Origin: a virus
IMG/VR virus record: IMGVR_UViG_3300020445_000072
Coordinates: 1 to 24,223 of that record
Length of the DNA: 24,223 bases
Direction: 5' to 3' (one strand)
Position numbers and translations under genes: made by a program. The notes under the pieces were generated by a model. The model ran no database searches. It was given only the letters and a program-made list of their open reading frames with translations, and was not told the origin of the DNA. Below are positions 5,139 through 19,841 of the stretch, piece by piece (positions within the stretch are counted from its first letter, which is position 1; each line of letters opens with the position of its first letter).

Positions 5139-5290
5139 ATTCTTTTTAATTGTCTTACATCAGTAACACCAAACTGTGCCTTACATACATTCTCTGCATC
5201 TTCTCTAAGATTAGATACAGACAGAAATTCCACCTTCTGCAACCTATTGGAAGGTAATAGAATATATGCTTCCCATTTAATAGGTTTCAT
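5129..5290 (-). CDS. Small conserved-looking phage protein, 53 residues
   Basis: An ATG at 5290 opens 53 codons to a TAA at 5129-5131. The start overlaps the pcyA stop as ATGA and the end overlaps the NifU-like start by 10 nt, so it fits tightly into the operon; this packing is the main evidence that it is real. The protein has an N-terminal strand-like Trp-Glu-Ala-Tyr-Ile-Leu-Leu segment, then a helix, Cys-Lys-Ala-Gln-Phe-Gly-Val, and a basic end. No membrane segment or known motif is visible. Function unknown. Confidence 0.65.
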   Translation of the reverse strand: MKPIKWEAYILLPSNRLQKVEFLSVSNLREDAENVCKAQFGVTDVRQLKRIWN

Positions 5291-5952
5291 GGAGTACAGA
5301 ATAGTATATTATTAATATAACCGTCTGCCCATTCCTTATCAAACCACTTAGAAAGAACTGCTAATGTCTTAGGATTCTTTCTCTGTTGTATAGAGTATCT
5401 AATTTGGTCTGCCTTACGTTGTTCTGTTGTTAATGGTGATCCTTTTTCAGCACTCTTAACAGCATCACAGTATATAATAAGGTATTCCATTAATACATCA
5501 AGGAATTTTCTTTGTTCTTCTACATCCCTTATACGTTGAAATTTCATATAAGGTGAGAATATATCACCCCATTCTGGTAAAGGACGAGGTTCTTTAAAAT
5601 TGAATACACTACAGATAGGTTCTATCTTCTCATAAATGTATTCTGATCCCGTAATAGGTGATACATCAACTATCGCAGCAGTAACTACTGTTGGAGTAGC
5701 AATGATATCACATCCAAAAATAGGAAGGTTATAACGAGGATCTGGAAAATACACGCAATGTAATACATCCAAATTTCCTGCCTTAGCAACCTCCAAATGG
5801 ATCTTACGAAGCCCTGTACATTCATGCATCTCATTAGAGATACTAAGATTCTCCCTATGTAACTCAGGGTATTCATTATATAACCATTTTATATTAGGTA
5901 AGTCACCCCAAGAGGTACGAATTACCTTTGCCAAATCATCAACGATAGTCAC
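5287..5952 (-). CDS. pcyA: Phycocyanobilin:ferredoxin oxidoreductase (ferredoxin-dependent bilin reductase)
   Basis: This 221-residue protein covers the whole ferredoxin-dependent bilin reductase fold. It resembles cyanobacterial PcyA in the segment Arg-Lys-x-His-Leu-Glu, Leu-His-Cys-Val, Phe-Pro-Asp-Pro, Leu-Pro-Ile-Phe-Gly-Cys-Asp-Ile and Trp-Gly-x-Ile-Phe-Ser. From memory of Synechocystis PcyA, its catalytic Glu76, His88 and Asp105 correspond here to E54, H65 and D82. Having all three favours PcyA, which reduces biliverdin by four electrons to phycocyanobilin, over the phage enzymes PebS or PcyX. The start is a GTG that shares one base with the TAG of the gene before it. The reaction needs reduced ferredoxin, and petF lies upstream in the same cluster; no heme oxygenase is in the window. 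It is somewhat shorter than host PcyA, mainly at the N-terminus. The exact product needs assay. Confidence 0.85.
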   Translation of the reverse strand: MTIVDDLAKVIRTSWGDLPNIKWLYNEYPELHRENLSISNEMHECTGLRKIHLEVAKAGNLDVLHCVYFPDPRYNLPIFGCDIIATPTVVTAAIVDVSPITGSEYIYEKIEPICSVFNFKEPRPLPEWGDIFSPYMKFQRIRDVEEQRKFLDVLMEYLIIYCDAVKSAEKGSPLTTEQRKADQIRYSIQQRKNPKTLAVLSKWFDKEWADGYINNILFCTP

Positions 5953-6541: not shown

Positions 6542-6764
6542 TCAAATTCATTACCTTTTCTTTACCTCTGAAGTAGGTATTTATAACATCAACCTGATCT
6601 TGATACTTAGCAATCATGTTCAATTCTTCCTCTATTGCCTCTAAAACATTAGAATGTTCTCCAATGCCAGCAGGATTAGTGAGATAGATCTCAACATTTG
6701 CCTTATGCTTTGCTATGTCACCTTTTGCATGTGCTAATAGTGCATTAATAATTTTATCTCTCAT
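6528..6764 (-). CDS. Conserved cyanophage hypothetical protein, 78 residues
   Basis: This is an almost wholly alpha-helical, soluble protein of 78 residues: a helix to about 25 with Ala-His-Ala-Lys-Gly-Asp-Ile, a loop containing Asn-Pro-Ala-Gly-Ile-Gly-Glu-His, then a long helix 38-70. Its ATG shares one base with the ferredoxin stop (TAATG), so the two genes are translationally coupled. I recall proteins of this pattern as widespread in cyanomyovirus genomes, without known function. It has no cysteines and no membrane segment, so it is not an obvious electron-transfer partner despite its position after petF. Confidence 0.75.
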   Translation of the reverse strand: MRDKIINALLAHAKGDIAKHKANVEIYLTNPAGIGEHSNVLEAIEEELNMIAKYQDQVDVINTYFRGKEKVMNLNEGS

Positions 6765-7057
6765 TAGTATAAATTCTCCTCTTGTTCACTTAGTAATGTT
6801 ACTGTATCTGAAGTAGGTAATGCTACACATGTTAGTACATACCCTTCTTCTATTTGATCGTCATCCAAGAAAGATTGCTCTTCTTGATCTACTGTCCCTT
6901 CTACAATTTTCATAGCACATGATGAACATGCACCTGCTCTACATGATGAGGGATGATCCAAACCTGCTTCTTCTAATGCTTCTAATATAAAACTATCAGA
7001 TTCACATTCAAATGTTTCAGTTGATCCATCAGGAGATTGAACAGTAATAGTTGCCAT
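6764..7057 (-). CDS. petF: Plant-type [2Fe-2S] ferredoxin
   Basis: The 97 residues show the plant/cyanobacterial ferredoxin signature: cluster ligands C39, C44 and C47 in Cys-Arg-Ala-Gly-Ala-Cys-Ser-Ser-Cys, and C77 in Leu-Thr-Cys-Val-Ala. The N-terminal beta strands and acidic surface ([11 protein letters not shown]) are also typical. Length equals host PetF (about 97-99), so it is complete. It would take electrons from photosystem I and pass them to ferredoxin-dependent enzymes; PcyA, encoded further down the same leftward cluster, is an obvious recipient. It is followed by the 78-residue gene with a one-base overlap. A 75-nt AT-rich gap with possible -10 elements lies upstream. Confidence 0.95.
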
Positions 7058-10641: not shown

Positions 10642-10648
10642 TATTTAT
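10642..10648 (-). promoter_or_regulatory. T4-type late promoter box ATAAATA for gp5
   Basis: The minus strand reads CATAAATA here; the box starts 29 nt upstream of the gp5 ATG at 10619 and overlaps the TAA stop of cpeT. Confidence 0.7.
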
Positions 10649-11115
10649 GAGACACGGACAAACTTATAAGTTCCATCATCACCCCAAAGGACATTACCCT
10701 CAGAATCTACGGACTTATCCTTAGTGAATAGTTTATTACCATAGAGATTCAACTCAGCATATACACTGGTATCCTCTCCATCCTGATCTATTTTACTATT
10801 AAATGATCCAGTCCACTTAGAACCATCCCATCTTAATGTCATATCACAGTTATCAAGTCTTTTCCAATTAGTATATGTGCCACCATAATGTTCAAGAACT
10901 ACTTCTGTATCAGATAATGTCACAAGTTTCTTCCGAACCTCAAGATAAGGATCGGGATCATCTCTATAGTGATATGCAGCATGATACCATCCCAAACCTC
11001 TTCCAACTTTCCTTGTCCAATGCAAGGTCACCTGTCTAAATCCAGTAGGATTAGACTGTGCTTGGGCTTTATTACTCCAAGTACCTAAAAGAAACGCTTG
11101 AAAATATTCACTCAT
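10645..11115 (-). CDS. cpeT: CpeT-like phycobiliprotein lyase (T-type)
   Basis: The 156 residues match the CpeT/CpcT family, beta-barrel chaperone-lyases that bind a bilin and attach it to a phycobiliprotein cysteine. Visible family features are an N-terminal Gly-Thr-Trp-Ser-Asn-Lys-Ala-Gln-Ala, a strand with Arg-Gln-Val-Thr-Leu-His-Trp, Gly-Trp-Tyr-His-Ala-Ala-Tyr-His-Tyr, and later Asp-Asn-Cys-Asp-Met and Trp-Thr-Gly-Ser-Phe strands. Host CpeT has about 200 residues; phage versions are shorter, so this looks complete. Its ATG overlaps the oxygenase stop as ATGA. It shares a late transcription unit with cp12 and is separated from pcyA by gp5. Phage CpeT proteins bind bilins, but activity and target here are not shown. 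Confidence 0.88.
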   Translation of the reverse strand: MSEYFQAFLLGTWSNKAQAQSNPTGFRQVTLHWTRKVGRGLGWYHAAYHYRDDPDPYLEVRKKLVTLSDTEVVLEHYGGTYTNWKRLDNCDMTLRWDGSKWTGSFNSKIDQDGEDTSVYAELNLYGNKLFTKDKSVDSEGNVLWGDDGTYKFVRVS

Positions 11116-11759
11116 ACCAATTTCTGAGACCTCTCATCAAAATCATACATTATGTTTATTGACATTATATATCTGTTTTGATCAGATTGATTTATTTCTG
11201 TCTTATGCTTCATCCATCCAGGAAATAATAACACATCATTAGTTTCCACATCAACAGTATGCCATTTTAACCCAAGACTATCATAGTTACCATGCATAGG
11301 TTCTGCACACTTGTATATCTGCATTGGATTCTCTATCATTAATCCTCCACCCTTAGGTGGAACATTTAGATAGCATGATACAGCAACAATAGCTCTATTA
11401 TGCATGTGTTCTGCTGTCCATCCTCCTTTAGGATGTACATTAAGCCATGACTCTGAGATATAATTCTTTACTCTTGGTTCAAGTCTCCAAGTTTCCCATA
11501 TCTCTCCGATACGAGATGGCAACCACCCCTGTACAAAGTCCTGAAACTCTGGCCAATAATGAGGAGGTTGATATTGTGTGCCCATAAGGACAACACTAGT
11601 CTCCGCACCATCTCTCATGAGAGGTTGCGGAACATTGTACTGTGTTTTGATATTCTCTGCTATCTTAAGATTATCAATTATCTTCTGCTTATTCTTATTA
11701 AATTCAAAGTCATACTTCCCTTTAAAGAGATAGGGAGTAGGATTAACATAATCTAACAT
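11112..11759 (-). CDS. Putative 2-oxoglutarate/Fe(II)-dependent oxygenase
   Basis: The protein has 215 residues from the ATG at 11759; an in-frame TTG at 11768 would add three. The C-terminal half fits the 2OG-Fe(II) oxygenase family common in cyanophages: Trp-Leu-Asn-Val-His-Pro-Lys-Gly-Gly, then a His-x-His pair (Glu-His-Met-His-Asn-Arg), a strand Ser-Cys-Tyr-Leu-Asn-Val-Pro-Pro-Lys-Gly-Gly-Gly, a distal His in Phe-Pro-Gly-Trp-Met-Lys-His, and Arg in Gln-Asn-Arg-Tyr as 2-oxoglutarate contact. The usual acidic ligand of His-x-Asp appears replaced or displaced, so metal coordination should be checked. The substrate is unknown; protein or small-molecule hydroxylation is possible. It is coupled to cp12 upstream and cpeT downstream. 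Confidence 0.8.
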   Translation of the reverse strand: MLDYVNPTPYLFKGKYDFEFNKNKQKIIDNLKIAENIKTQYNVPQPLMRDGAETSVVLMGTQYQPPHYWPEFQDFVQGWLPSRIGEIWETWRLEPRVKNYISESWLNVHPKGGWTAEHMHNRAIVAVSCYLNVPPKGGGLMIENPMQIYKCAEPMHGNYDSLGLKWHTVDVETNDVLLFPGWMKHKTEINQSDQNRYIMSINIMYDFDERSQKLV

Positions 11760-11764
11760 AAACT

Positions 11765-11992
11765 TCAATCATCATAAACTAAACATTCTGGTTCGTCTGG
11801 ATTCTGATCACAAAATAATTCTAAGCAATTAGGATCGTGATGGTCTCCATCTACGATCTCTTGATGATGATGCTCTTCGTATTCTATAAGGTCATGCAAC
11901 TCTTCTTTAACGTGTCTACGTGCAGCAGGACTAATAGTAGGATCATCAAGGAGCTCCTTGTCGTGCTCTATATGTTGTTCGATTGTTGTCAT
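11765..11992 (-). CDS. cp12: CP12-like Calvin-cycle regulator
   Basis: The protein has 75 residues from the ATG at 11992, chosen because GGAG lies 6 nt upstream; a TTG four codons earlier lacks this. The C-terminus Leu-Phe-Cys-Asp-Gln-Asn-Pro-Asp-Glu-Pro-Glu-Cys-Leu-Val-Tyr-Asp-Asp is the diagnostic CP12 tail, with the redox pair C61 and C70. The N-terminal half is helical and acidic, ending in His-His-His-Gln. The N-terminal cysteine pair of host CP12 is absent. CP12 bridges GAPDH and phosphoribulokinase and switches off the Calvin cycle; cyanophage CP12 is thought to divert carbon and NADPH towards the pentose phosphate pathway. It is first in a late cassette and overlaps the oxygenase gene. 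Confidence 0.88.
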   Translation of the reverse strand: MTTIEQHIEHDKELLDDPTISPAARRHVKEELHDLIEYEEHHHQEIVDGDHHDPNCLELFCDQNPDEPECLVYDD

Positions 11993-12051: not shown

Positions 12052-13578
12052 TTACACCTTGGATTTAGTTTTGATAACATCATCTTGGATCTTTGCCCCA
12101 TCTGTTGTAGATAAAGTGGAGATAGCAGGTTTACCATAAAGACTATCCTTACAAAGAAGTAAAGTTGTACTGAAAGTCTCACCAGTAGATTCATGTTCAA
12201 CACCAACTATAAGATAGCGTCCACTATACTTTTTGTCAATAAAAACTTCATCCCCTCTTTGTCCACCAGGCATTTCAACATAAACTGCAGATCCTGCATA
12301 TAAATCAAGATTACCAGGAACTCCAATTGATAGTCTAATAGACTTCAATGATTCCATACGAATATATTGATATGCTTGAAGCTCTACCAACTGTTCATAA
12401 TTCTTCTGGGGATTCTTTTTGAATTTTTTATCAAATACCTGGTTTGGAAGTGCAGTATAGCGTACTCTCTTTGGATAGTCAAGTAATGCCTGAACACCAC
12501 TATCCATAAGTTTTATTGGATTCTGATCCTTAGTCTTTCCAAGATGAGACATATTCTTCCACATCTCTTGATTACTATATCTGTAAGTATCATTTGATAT
12601 GTCCTGACTTACATCAGTTCCCACTTTAGAATTACCAAGTGTAGTTGGATCAAATCCAATACTATACCCTGCCCAAGCTCCATGTCTTAATCCCATAAGA
12701 TAACTTCTTTCATTAGGGAATACTATACTATTAATATTATACGGATCAGTTTCTGGAGATCCTGTACTCTTAGGTCTATATGTGTATTTGTAAAGTTGAG
12801 GTTCTCCCTTTGTAAAATTAGTTTTAGTATCAAACTTTTGTGCATTAGCTCGATCAATCATACCATCAATTGATTTAAAATTATATCCTAATGCAGTCTC
12901 AAAGAAAGCATATCCATTTTGGAATGATGATTTACCCTTACCTTTACGAATTGTCCTCTGTCCTAACCAATAAATGAGATCAAATGGTCTCCAATTCGTT
13001 GATATGAATTGATGGTTATTAATAGATTCATTCAAATCAGTAAATACTTTCTTAGGACTACCAATATAATCCTTATTATTGAGAAGTCTTTTAACTATTG
13101 CTTCTGCTTTAGTACCAGACTCTGTTTGTTTATATGAAGTTTTCTTAGTTACGTCCTTCCTACCTCCAAACAAAACTTCACTGTGACCAAATACATTAAC
13201 AACCTCATTCTTTAAAAACTCATCTGATGCAGCATTGATTATAAAGATATCAGACAACTGATTAGTTCTAGAACGATCTACAACTTCATAGGTTCTAAAA
13301 AAATAAGTTCTATCTATATGATCAGTCTTAAGAGTAAACTTCCAGCTCTCTGATCCTGTTAAAACAGCACACATTCCCATAGCATCAGTTAAAACAAAAC
13401 TAGCTTGTATTGATGCATTAGTGATAGTCTCTGAAATACTAAAACCATTCAAAAATTCTACAAAATTCCAAGAACCATCAATTTCAACCCTCTGTCCATT
13501 ACGATAAATGGATAATTCGGCTTCAATGTCAGAAATCTGACTACCTGTTATAGATCCTTTTCTATTAACATTACTCAT
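12052..13578 (-). CDS. 27: Baseplate hub protein, gp27-like
   Basis: This 508-residue protein starts at an ATG that overlaps the stop of the 921-residue gene as ATGA. The N-terminal ~150 residues form beta-strand pairs like hub domains (Asn-Gly-Phe-Ser-Ile-Ser-Glu-Thr, Ser-Phe-Val-Leu-Thr-Asp, then Tyr-Phe-Phe-Arg-Thr-Tyr-Glu-Val). The middle (about 160-240) contains a helix and Phe-Ile-Ser-Thr-Asn-Trp-Arg-Pro-Phe-Asp, typical of the segment in gp27/VgrG-type hubs that packs against the tube. The C-terminal Tyr-Ser-Gly-Arg-Tyr-Leu-Ile-Val-Gly-Val-Glu-His-Glu is also characteristic. T4 gp27 has 391 residues, so this one is enlarged. It would trimerise on gp5 as the adaptor to the tail tube. 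Gene order (tape measure, hub, gp5) agrees. Confidence 0.75.
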   Translation of the reverse strand: MSNVNRKGSITGSQISDIEAELSIYRNGQRVEIDGSWNFVEFLNGFSISETITNASIQASFVLTDAMGMCAVLTGSESWKFTLKTDHIDRTYFFRTYEVVDRSRTNQLSDIFIINAASDEFLKNEVVNVFGHSEVLFGGRKDVTKKTSYKQTESGTKAEAIVKRLLNNKDYIGSPKKVFTDLNESINNHQFISTNWRPFDLIYWLGQRTIRKGKGKSSFQNGYAFFETALGYNFKSIDGMIDRANAQKFDTKTNFTKGEPQLYKYTYRPKSTGSPETDPYNINSIVFPNERSYLMGLRHGAWAGYSIGFDPTTLGNSKVGTDVSQDISNDTYRYSNQEMWKNMSHLGKTKDQNPIKLMDSGVQALLDYPKRVRYTALPNQVFDKKFKKNPQKNYEQLVELQAYQYIRMESLKSIRLSIGVPGNLDLYAGSAVYVEMPGGQRGDEVFIDKKYSGRYLIVGVEHESTGETFSTTLLLCKDSLYGKPAISTLSTTDGAKIQDDVIKTKSKV

Positions 13579-16374: not shown

Positions 16375-18944
16375 ATCCTACCAGCTAGACTATTATAAGC
16401 ATTACGCACAATAACTGCTTTCTCTTTAATTTGTGGTGAGATGACTACCTGATCCTGTATTATTGGCATTACTATAGGAAGAAGTTCTACTGGATCTTTT
16501 TGTAAAGCAACTGTCTTGGCACGATCATATAGACTCTTACCCTTTTCAACTGCTCCAAGTGCCTCAGGACTAACTCCTATCTCACCAGCAATCTCCTTGA
16601 GTCCAGTGTACATATCACCACCACCAAGTAATCCCATAGCAGACTTATAAAGTCCACCCATACCATTCTTCTCTGCTAATCCACCAATTGCTTGCATAGG
16701 AGAGAACCCACCAGCAAAAATATCCTGAATACCAGGAAGTTGTGAAAATCCAGGAATACTATTAGCTAATCCCGCAAGTCCAGGGAACATGTTACCAATA
16801 CCAGCAAGGTTATGTTCTTGTAACCAATTACCCATATTAGCCATCCTTCCACCTTCACCAAAGAACCCACCTTCTCCAAACAATCCACCAGGTTTATTCA
16901 ACCCTAATATATTACTACCAGCACTCAGGGCATTGCCCCAACCTCCACCAGTTGCACCTTGATAAACACCCTTAGCTAGTTGTCCTACATTAGACCCCAT
17001 GAAATTACTAACTCCAGCAGTTAATCCTGCCCAAGCATTAGCACCAGAGTTATACATACCAGCAAGTCCTTGACCAAACTTACTCATACGTAAGTTCATC
17101 ATCCAATTTGGTGTGTTAACCATAGACTTGGCAGTACTACCAATAGCAGCAAAGTTGCCTAAAGCACCAACACCGCCCATGACGGCACCCATGATATCTC
17201 CCTGCCTTAAGGAATTAAACGCATTAATACCTGCAACAATAGGTCCAACACCTGGAACAAATGATAGAGCAGTAGATACTATAGGATTACTAACTACCTT
17301 ACCGACAGTATTAACAACACCACTTACTACACTACCAACACCCTTAACTACACTACCTACTGCCTTACTAATACCTTTAAATATCTTACCGAAGAAGAAT
17401 TCTGGTAATTTACCTCCATCACCTTTCCAAAATTCCCACCATTTCTTACTAGATGTAACCTCTTTTTTAGCTGTTTTTTGAACAGGTGCTACAACATCAT
17501 CCTTCTTCTTTTTACCCCATCCACTAAAAAGATTACCAAAGAAATTAGTTTTCTTTTTATTTGAATCGGATTTTTTTACTTCAATAGTTTTCTTAGGAGT
17601 AGTATCCCTATTGTTAATATAATCAATCTTCTGAGAAAGTACATCAATCTTTGTCTCATTAGGACCAACAAGAACATTGGGATATCCTAAGAGAGCCATA
17701 TTTGCCCACTTATTCCAAGGTGTCTTTGCTTGTTCAGCAGCTAGATCCGACTTTAACTTATTAAGTACTTTTGCTTCACCATGCTGGGCTATTGCTTCAT
17801 CTATCTTCTGATTACCCATCTCAGTGGCTTTTTTATTGATAGGTTCAAAGATGAATTTATCAGCAGCCCAATTAATACCCCAATCAGCAAGAATACCTAC
17901 ACCAAGATTCGTAGCACCCTTTGCTCCACTCTTTAAAATATTTCCAGAAGTTACAAGAGGTTTTGCTTTAAAATTCTTAACACCTTTCTTACCCCAATTT
18001 TTTATCCCTGACCAAGTTTTCTGCCAGAAATTCCCTTTCTTCATTATATTTGAAGCACCCTGAATACTAGGTGCTCTAAATTTAGTAGACCTTAATTTAC
18101 CAGTGTTAGTAAACGATGTCTTACCCTTTACACCTTTACTTGAAGCGTTACTCTTTGTTCTTTGATTTAACTTACTATTTTTAGTTTTATTAGTATCTCC
18201 CTTTGGTGGCTTTGGAGGTTTTCTGTTGAATACATTGCAAAAGTTACCAATCCAGGTAACTATCATTGCTAGACTACCTATAGGATTAGTCAGCATTGAT
18301 ATAACAGCTATACCTTGAGTTAAATCCCAGAGGCCACTAAACCTCTCCATCAAGGTACTTTCTTTACCAACTAATTTTTGCCAACCTGATATTAACTTAT
18401 CATTAACCAACCATTGACCAAACTCTTTTAACTTTGTAAATATTACATTTGATTTATAAAAAAATTCTTCTATTTTATGCTCATTATCTGGATCAGCAAA
18501 CCATTCCAACATCTCCTTAACTACTGCGATCTTCAAGATCTCAGTAAATAGCATAAACAATGGTTCCATCATCTTTGCCCACATGGGCAACATACTCATC
18601 AAACCCTTACCTATTTTAGACTTACCAAAGAAACCTTTTATTTTACCCTTAGAAGGTTTCCCCTTATCAGTCTTACCTAATTTTGCCCTCTCCTGATCTT
18701 CCTCTGCATCAGAATCCCTATCTCTTTGTGCTTGCCGACGCTCCATCTTCTCTCTAAGAGCATCATTCTTTATACGAGCTATCTCAATCGATTCAATATC
18801 TTTAACTACACTACCAACACCATTAAGTGTCTTACCAAAACGATTAAAGGATAAAACTAATTTTCTGCCCACAAGCGATCCTTCGCTGGCATTATCTGCT
18901 GCCATGCCAGGATTAATAAACTTGTATGCTTCAATTTTAGCCAT
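16371..18944 (-). CDS. Putative tail tape-measure protein (gp29 position)
   Basis: This 857-residue protein is large, helical and low in cysteine, and follows the tail-assembly chaperone as tape-measure genes do. Residues 30-70 form a coiled-coil-like helix (Phe-Gly-Lys-Thr-Leu-Asn-Gly-Val-Gly-Ser-Val-Val), then come a charged linker to 110, hydrophobic helices at 115-150 and 200-235, a very basic Lys/Thr/Ser-rich stretch 240-330, another amphipathic region, and from about 515 Gly/Val/Ala-rich hydrophobic segments with Gly-Gly-Leu and Gly-Asn-Met repeats. T4 gp29 has 590 residues; similarity cannot be judged by eye. The ATG overlaps the end of the -1 frame chaperone extension. Its first ~240 residues are paralogous to the 921-residue protein. 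It presumably sits in the tube lumen and sets tail length. Confidence 0.65.
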   Translation of the reverse strand: MAKIEAYKFINPGMAADNASEGSLVGRKLVLSFNRFGKTLNGVGSVVKDIESIEIARIKNDALREKMERRQAQRDRDSDAEEDQERAKLGKTDKGKPSKGKIKGFFGKSKIGKGLMSMLPMWAKMMEPLFMLFTEILKIAVVKEMLEWFADPDNEHKIEEFFYKSNVIFTKLKEFGQWLVNDKLISGWQKLVGKESTLMERFSGLWDLTQGIAVISMLTNPIGSLAMIVTWIGNFCNVFNRKPPKPPKGDTNKTKNSKLNQRTKSNASSKGVKGKTSFTNTGKLRSTKFRAPSIQGASNIMKKGNFWQKTWSGIKNWGKKGVKNFKAKPLVTSGNILKSGAKGATNLGVGILADWGINWAADKFIFEPINKKATEMGNQKIDEAIAQHGEAKVLNKLKSDLAAEQAKTPWNKWANMALLGYPNVLVGPNETKIDVLSQKIDYINNRDTTPKKTIEVKKSDSNKKKTNFFGNLFSGWGKKKKDDVVAPVQKTAKKEVTSSKKWWEFWKGDGGKLPEFFFGKIFKGISKAVGSVVKGVGSVVSGVVNTVGKVVSNPIVSTALSFVPGVGPIVAGINAFNSLRQGDIMGAVMGGVGALGNFAAIGSTAKSMVNTPNWMMNLRMSKFGQGLAGMYNSGANAWAGLTAGVSNFMGSNVGQLAKGVYQGATGGGWGNALSAGSNILGLNKPGGLFGEGGFFGEGGRMANMGNWLQEHNLAGIGNMFPGLAGLANSIPGFSQLPGIQDIFAGGFSPMQAIGGLAEKNGMGGLYKSAMGLLGGGDMYTGLKEIAGEIGVSPEALGAVEKGKSLYDRAKTVALQKDPVELLPIVMPIIQDQVVISPQIKEKAVIVRNAYNSLAGRM

Positions 18945-19131
18945 TAGCTGCTTGTTGCTCTTTTGCTCTTCGCTCTTCCTCTTTGAGGAATGACATTAGT
19001 AAATTAACATAAATTTCCTTCTCAAAGGGCATCAAATTATCAACATACTCTATATTCCACTTGTGATGATGCATTAATGCGAAGTTACCTTCATAATAAG
19101 CTTTCAATGTATTATGAAGTAGAGCTATGCG
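18937..19131 (-). CDS. -1 frame extension of the gp26-like chaperone (GT-type), made by frameshift
   Basis: In the -1 frame relative to the gp26-like gene, 64 sense codons run from the slip site to a TAA at 18937-18939 that lies over the tape-measure ATG. This frame has a TGA 13 nt upstream of the slippery heptamer and no ATG until 45 codons before the end, so an independent start would lose conserved-looking sequence. The peptide is helical and charged: Leu-Leu-His-Asn-Thr-Leu-Lys-Ala-Tyr-Tyr-Glu-Gly-Asn-Phe-Ala-Leu-Met-His-His-His, then Pro-Phe-Glu-Lys-Glu-Ile-Tyr and Glu-Glu-Glu-Arg-Arg, a pattern typical of T domains of tail assembly chaperones. A frameshifted product would have 301 residues. 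Alternatives are a TTG start or a separate short gene; T4 has a separate gene 51 in this operon position. Confidence 0.75.
   Translation of the reverse strand, partial: RIALLHNTLKAYYEGNFALMHHHKWNIEYVDNLMPFEKEIYVNLLMSFLKEEERRAKEQQAANG
19089..19119 (-). promoter_or_regulatory. Perfect 10-bp stem-loop downstream of the slippery site
   Basis: On the minus strand, CTTCATAATA (19119-19110) pairs exactly with TATTATGAAG (19098-19089) across an 11-nt loop. The stem begins 11 nt after the slippery heptamer, slightly farther than the usual 5-9 nt, and is AT-rich. It could stimulate -1 frameshifting. Confidence 0.6.
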
Positions 19132-19841
19132 AAAAAACTCGCAAGACCCTCAAGTACAACATCACTTTCAACCTTTGTTTTAGGATTAGTTACCTTCAAA
19201 GTATGAGATAACTTAGGCATAGTTTCAAAAAATTCTTGAACCTTAAGAAACTGCTTACTGCTTAACTGCTCAAAGAACTCTACAATTTCAGTTCTTGGCA
19301 TATCAGTACAATCGTATACCTGTTCAGTATCAGTAATTGATTCAACACAATCAGCTGCCATGTCAAAAACTTGATCGGGACCGAAATCCTCTTCGTCACC
19401 TATGAAATTCATTGAAACAAAAGTTTCCATACTAGGATACTTCATCTTCATAACGATTTCATCAGATAATTTAATCTCTGATTTGTGTTTTTTATCTTTT
19501 TTAATCTTAATATCACTCAAAGGAATTGTTACAGGAACTTGAGTTTCACCATCATCAGGACATGTTACAGAGAGTTCAACACTCTCACCAACAGATTTTG
19601 TACGAATCTGAAGGAATAAAAATTCAATATCAAAAGTTGCTAAAACATCTATTTTTTCTATATCAGTACATGCTGTAATGATAGTCTTAATAGCATCAAT
19701 AAGATCTGCCTGTTCACCAGTTTCAGTCGCTAAAAGAAGCAACTTCTCTTCTTTAACAAGAAAAGGTCTATAATTTACAGTCCTACCATCAGACGGTAGT
19801 TTCATTTTGTACTTAGGTACATTTAATTTAGGTAATGCCAT
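19125..19841 (-). CDS. 26: Baseplate hub / tail assembly chaperone, gp26-like
   Basis: This 238-residue protein begins Ala-Leu-Pro-Lys-Leu-Asn-Val-Pro-Lys-Tyr-Lys-Met-Lys-Leu-Pro-Ser and continues Tyr-Arg-Pro-Phe-Leu-Val-Lys-Glu-Glu-Lys, which I recognise from the T4-like gp26 baseplate family. The N-terminal helix region (30-80) ends in Phe-Asp-Ile-Glu-Phe-Leu-Phe-Leu-Gln-Ile-Arg, followed by a beta part with a Cys-Pro-Asp-Asp-Gly motif and an acidic helical C-terminus. T4 gp26 has 208 residues. It lies directly upstream of the tape-measure gene and carries a -1 slippery site at its third and second last codons, as G-type tail assembly chaperones do. The ATG follows a CTAAATA late box by 28 nt. 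Calling it a chaperone is inferred from position and frameshift; hub membership is family knowledge. Confidence 0.8.
   Translation of the reverse strand: MALPKLNVPKYKMKLPSDGRTVNYRPFLVKEEKLLLLATETGEQADLIDAIKTIITACTDIEKIDVLATFDIEFLFLQIRTKSVGESVELSVTCPDDGETQVPVTIPLSDIKIKKDKKHKSEIKLSDEIVMKMKYPSMETFVSMNFIGDEEDFGPDQVFDMAADCVESITDTEQVYDCTDMPRTEIVEFFEQLSSKQFLKVQEFFETMPKLSHTLKVTNPKTKVESDVVLEGLASFFA
19131..19137 (-). promoter_or_regulatory. Slippery heptamer T TTT TTC for -1 frameshift
   Basis: In the frame of the gp26-like gene the codons read AGT TTT TTC GCA TAG, so T TTT TTC fits X XXY YYZ exactly. It is the only such site in the short window between the last -1 frame stop (TGA) and the zero-frame TAG, two codons later. 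Confidence 0.75.

Follow-up and report, generated by a model that had tools for sequence, protein, structure and literature searches.

The 24,223-base IMG/VR record IMGVR_UViG_3300020445_000072, a fragment whose gene content is of the T4-like cyanophage type, carries a gp26-like gene whose 3' end, on the comparative evidence given here, very probably encodes a pair of tail assembly chaperones (TACs) from one mRNA by programmed −1 ribosomal frameshifting (the whole record, as analysed, is called the window below, and all gene coordinates are on its minus strand). Most ribosomes would terminate at the TAG stop codon of the gp26-like gene and so make TAC-N (238 amino acids), while a minority would slip at the heptamer T_TTT_TTC, where both tRNA-Phe molecules would re-pair one base back, and would continue in the −1 frame to give TAC-NC (301 amino acids), which would carry a gp51-type TAC-C domain. 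By analogy with the lambda G and GT proteins, TAC-N would form a coat on the tape-measure protein, whose probable gene lies directly downstream, and TAC-C would recruit tail-tube subunits; since the slip decides between the two products, the efficiency of slippage would set the TAC-N to TAC-NC ratio.

The gp26-like gene occupies the 0 frame from 19841 to 19125 and ends AGT TTT TTC GCA TAG, with its TAG at 19127-19125 and the slippery heptamer, in X_XXY_YYZ register, at 19137-19131. The −1 frame is open from 19149, immediately after its last upstream stop (a TGA at 19152-19150), to a TAA at 18939-18937, and T_TTT_TTC is the only in-register X_XXY_YYZ heptamer within the overlap of the two frames. 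A −1 slip there would add 64 residues (RIALLHN...QAANG, the TAC-C portion), the fusion junction would read ...ASFF-RIALLHN..., and the predicted junction peptide is VESDVVLEGLASFFR. The end of the −1 frame overlaps the ATG (18944-18942) of the next gene. A first-pass annotation of this DNA had described the same zero-frame end, TGA, open −1 frame running over the next ATG and single heptamer, and had proposed 238- and 301-residue products made by frameshifting; all of these features were reproduced, and the comparative evidence (heptamer conservation, the coding pattern of the −1 frame, and lineages that have separate genes) supports the two products. By itself, an open run of 62 codons has a p value of ~0.013 at the base composition of the window; the presence of the heptamer in every junction (below), together with the codon-position substitution pattern in the −1 frame, exceeds chance.

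Conservation of the heptamer and of the −1 frame

Loci found in IMG/VR by means of the gp26 protein, the −1 peptide or a −1 profile, together with named phages, gave 205 loci that reduce to 198 distinct junctions. The junctions were not selected on the heptamer, with the qualification that for nine named phages the final tally found it by a search for the heptamer string, after an earlier and independent reading; changes were counted on a tree of 116 sequences. An in-register heptamer is present in 198 of 198 junctions (TTTTTTC in 177, TTTTTTT in 16 and TTTTTTA in 5), and in all of them the −1 extension, 58–70 codons long, is open, so the alignment of homologues that had been proposed as a check finds both features kept throughout. 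In 33 of the 198, the heptamer is also the point at which the −1 frame becomes open. These junctions span Kyanoviridae, KVP40-like, Aeromonas and Sinorhizobium phages, and named carriers are phi-pp2/KVP40, Aeromonas PX29, Sinorhizobium phiN3, S-PM2 and P-SSM2. Six loci (L204, L210, L211, L219, L224 and L257) have their 0-frame stop 21 nucleotides further downstream, which makes TAC-N 7 residues longer and leaves the heptamer and the −1 frame unchanged.

The codon that precedes TTT varies (AGT, TCT, GCT, GAT or AAT) with T always as its third base, and on the tree its first and second positions have changed 17 and 14 times, respectively, and its third not at all. Across the three codons of the heptamer, third-position changes number 0, 0 and 1, compared to a mean of 26.5 at upstream third positions. 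A strong preference for TTT is likewise seen at a few of the other conserved Phe codons (4, 6 and 2 changes), so the case for the heptamer rests on the three third positions jointly. None of the 190 other Phe-Phe pairs of these genes is written T_TTT_TTY. In the window, the sole other in-frame T_TTT_TTN within long minus-strand open reading frames lies at 13303, a long way from where its gene ends, and is probably due to chance.

An ATG inside the −1 frame (codon 21, 19074-19072) enters two other accounts of the locus. That many cyanophages make a third product besides TAC-N and the frameshifted TAC-NC, namely a free TAC-C ~45 amino acids in length that starts at this ATG and acts as a separate tail-assembly regulator, we consider unlikely. 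Less likely still is that the −1 frame is simply an independent small gene, a gp51 of ~45 amino acids translated from the internal ATG, and that the heptamer is incidental. Codon 21 is ATG in 100 of 116 relatives, and most cyanophage records use it as the start of a separate gp51, as those of Syn33 and S-IOM18 do for a protein of about 45 amino acids. Against such a gene, coding selection in the −1 frame is already visible upstream of the ATG: in codons 4–20, which lie between the 0-frame stop and codon 21, positions 1, 2 and 3 have changed 7.4, 5.7 and 20.5 times per site, a pattern characteristic of translated sequence. Nor is the start conserved, a conserved independent start being the observation that the first-pass annotation had named as speaking against frameshifting; codon 21 is some other codon in 16 of 116 relatives, the ATG having been lost in several lineages, and the first 34 codons of the −1 frame contain no ATG in 7 of 198 junctions and no ATG, GTG or TTG in 3, among them that of the cultured phage S-CAM8. 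The invariance of the heptamer across junctions, and the fusion of TAC-C to a TAC-N domain in T4 and Vibrio phage pv27, argue in the same direction. The lack of a ribosome-binding site for the small open reading frame was left out of this argument because the gp26 start has no clear one either. The internal ATG may be retained as a Met codon for protein reasons. Two overlapping open reading frames of which the second is in the −1 frame and has no conserved start of its own, the arrangement by which a frameshifted chaperone pair is recognised, are thus what these junctions contain.

The two predicted products and their counterparts in other lineages

The 0-frame protein matches Pfam PF12322 T4_baseplate (3.9e-75) and phrog_150 (baseplate hub; 3.7e-94), and the TAC-N family profile matches T4 gp26 (203 columns, 98.1%, E 9e-14). 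The −1 peptide matches phrog_634, the “baseplate hub assembly catalyst”, i.e., gp51 (1.3e-28). T4 gp51 itself matches both phrog_150 (residues 3-248) and phrog_634 (residues 147-246), as the window fusion does, while T4 gp26 matches phrog_150 and not phrog_634; because the two families are split in this way between the T4 proteins, the predicted frameshift product is by sequence comparison the counterpart of T4 gp51 from end to end, and the unshifted 238-amino-acid product is that of T4 gp26. The comparison of the −1 peptide with T4 gp51 that the first-pass annotation had suggested is clearer by the PHROG route; the hhalign match of the TAC-C profile to the single T4 gp51 sequence is weak (E 0.0014); the match of that profile to Vibrio pv27 is firmer (E 3e-7). 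An AlphaFold2 model of TAC-N (predicted local distance difference test score, pLDDT, 85) strongly matches predicted viral baseplate-hub proteins, and TAC-C is predicted to be helical. A sequence search of the PDB gave nothing, its gp41 matches at E values of at least 0.36 being chance coiled-coil similarities. We infer the chaperone role of both products from their homology and from the position of the locus.

In nine lineages the long form has a gene of its own: T4, Karamvirus, Jiaodavirus, Dhakavirus, Lazarusvirus, two Krischvirus phages, Acinetobacter Ac42 and Vibrio pv27. In none of them does the end of TAC-N carry an in-register heptamer. In T4, Karamvirus, Jiaodavirus and Dhakavirus (phages T4, KMB19, JEC and JS98) the Phe-Phe pair is retained and is written TTC TTT or TTC TTC. 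The contrast between the heptamer-bearing lineages and these separate-gene, heptamer-less ones lets one ask, as in a natural experiment, by what means phages fix the ratio between two assembly proteins. Vibrio pv27 (L171:1802-3144) has its separate TAC-N and TAC-NC genes in tandem, without a heptamer and with the long form annotated just as “baseplate protein”; an IMG/VR search for relatives of this long form found none. At this locus of the 24-kb fragment, TAC-N and the −1 extension were found and no T4-type separate gene for the long form; such a gene may lie elsewhere.

Desulfovibrio phage 7757 has the −1 layout with T_TTT_TTC. The layout occurs in Kyanoviridae, KVP40-like, Aeromonas Angelvirus, Sinorhizobium and Desulfovibrio phages, a distribution suggestive of an ancestral −1 layout and a derived two-gene form, that of T4 included. 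Pseudomonas phage Cygsa01 (L274:1509-1682) is an exception: relative to TAC-N its TAC-C is in the −1 frame, yet there is no canonical heptamer and there is a TAATG overlap; the overlap could serve as a start, and Cygsa01 could use a different shift site or coupled re-initiation.

Candidate stimulators and neighbouring genes

A Shine-Dalgarno-like GAGGG (19151-19147) lies 9 nucleotides upstream of the heptamer in the window. As a candidate stimulator it would be of the dnaX type, and it was absent from the first-pass annotation. GAGG, AGGA or GGAG is present upstream of the heptamer in 150 of 198 junctions. The element falls on Glu231/Gly232, and a Glu-Gly pair tends to be Shine-Dalgarno-like anyway; even so, Glu231 is GAG in 87 of 116 relatives, where each of five other conserved Glu codons is GAG in 19–45 of 116, and Gly232 is GGA or GGG in 80 of 116, compared with 7 at Gly85. 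A duplex-energy test of the element gave a weak shift (mean z −0.71, with one control window at −0.65), and its case therefore rests on codon choice at these two residues.

The perfect 10-base-pair stem-loop that the first-pass annotation had placed 11 nucleotides past the heptamer is present in the window (19119-19089; arms CTTCATAATA at 19119-19110 and TATTATGAAG at 19098-19089), but it finds no support in the family. Synonymous recoding gives equally stable folds (p ~0.3 in the window), and the fold z value of the stem across the family is −0.68 versus −0.66 and −0.34 in control stretches. With a fold signal like that of the controls and complete pairing in few relatives (below), the 3' stem-loop was rejected as a conserved stimulator for the family; it is probably incidental, and the upstream GAGG appears to be the better candidate.

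Several observations weigh against a frameshifted chaperone pair. No universal stimulator was found across the 198 junctions, neither the 3' stem nor the upstream GAGG being universal: all 10 stem pairs are formed in 6 of 116 relatives, and the upstream GAGG-type element is missing in 48 of 198 junctions. The solved HK97 chaperone structure 2ob9 is among the top matches to the TAC-N model, with E values (1.5–4.8) that are not significant, and the gene product predicted to be the tape-measure protein (857 amino acids) has no detectable similarity to T4 gp29.

The two frames could also be joined by RNA-polymerase slippage on the six-T run, where one extra U in the mRNA would yield the same fusion and for which every junction offers a homopolymer run, but in most junctions (TTTTTTC in 177 of 198 and TTTTTTA in 5) the run has not grown beyond six, six-base runs are short for transcriptional slippage, and the Shine-Dalgarno-like element is common at a stimulator's distance, and we regard this explanation as highly improbable relative to ribosomal frameshifting.

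The 857-amino-acid neighbour (18944-16371) has four hydrophobic stretches and matches phrog_790, which is labelled “endolysin”; its position and composition make it the probable tape-measure protein. It shares an N-terminal region (25% identity over 247 amino acids, E 3e-12) with the second of the two large genes that follow the chaperones (16340-13575), in which a SleB-type cell-wall hydrolase domain is also present, and both large genes are tape-measure candidates. Auxiliary metabolic genes are interspersed with the tail genes at 5287-5952, 6764-7057, 10645-11115 and 11112-11768, and their PHROG matches are ferredoxin oxidoreductase, ferredoxin, CpeT-like antenna protein and 2OG-Fe(II) oxygenase.

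Comparison with known tail assembly chaperone systems

The predicted mechanism is of a known kind, the cyanophage version of one that has been described in many long-tailed phages and that earlier work had proposed for T4-like phages too. An article by Vladimirov, Gautam and Davidson (Virology 566:9-15, 2022) is reported to have identified the TAC genes of T4-like phages, and it reportedly describes frameshifting as conserved in several T4-like groups and T4 as using genes 26 and 51. Two later papers cite it: the PRFect paper (PMC10885494) does so for the statement that in some T4-like phages the short form and the fused long form have separate genes, and a paper on Pseudomonas phage Adele (PMC12846349) for poly-T slippery sites in T4-like TAC-N genes. 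The T4-like TAC-N and TAC-NC genes of the 2022 work belong to the same protein families as those of the window, gp26 and gp51. The first-pass annotation had tied T4 gp26 and gp51 to the G/GT chaperones and had offered this unification of hub proteins with chaperones as a consequence of the frameshift; the phrog_150/phrog_634 pattern and the gp26 profile match support the connection, but the unification is prior art, having been published in 2022 (Vladimirov, Gautam & Davidson). Added here are the large-scale conservation test, the coding test upstream of the internal ATG, the separate-gene control, the upstream candidate stimulator and the rejection of the stem, which together give a sequence-level answer to how an abundant marine phage group encodes its tail chaperones. 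Many cyanophage records misannotate the second half of the long form: in those of S-CAM8, S-MbCM100, Syn30, Syn33 and S-IOM18 the −1 extension is a separate 45-amino-acid gp51 or is omitted, and a joined coding sequence is needed.

The slippery heptamer of lambda is G_GGA_AAG, and that of the window is different. The predicted pair is like lambda gpG/gpGT (Xu, Hendrix & Duda 2004) in having a short protein and a frameshifted long one, with the −1 shift placed close to where the first open reading frame ends; the lambda pair is encoded directly upstream of the tape-measure gene (review PMC5009743), as the pair of the window probably is. The TAC locus of Adele and the Vandenendeviridae (PMC12846349) also has a conserved −1 frame, a T-rich slippery motif at the 3' end of TAC-N and, as in relatives of the window, a downstream frame misannotated as a separate gene; unlike the window, its motif is GTTTTT and it belongs to a different phage family. 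In T4, gp26 matches TAC-N and gp51 has both TAC-N and TAC-C, but, unlike the arrangement in the window, genes 26 and 51 are separate and on opposite strands, and the 3' end of gene 26 lacks the heptamer.

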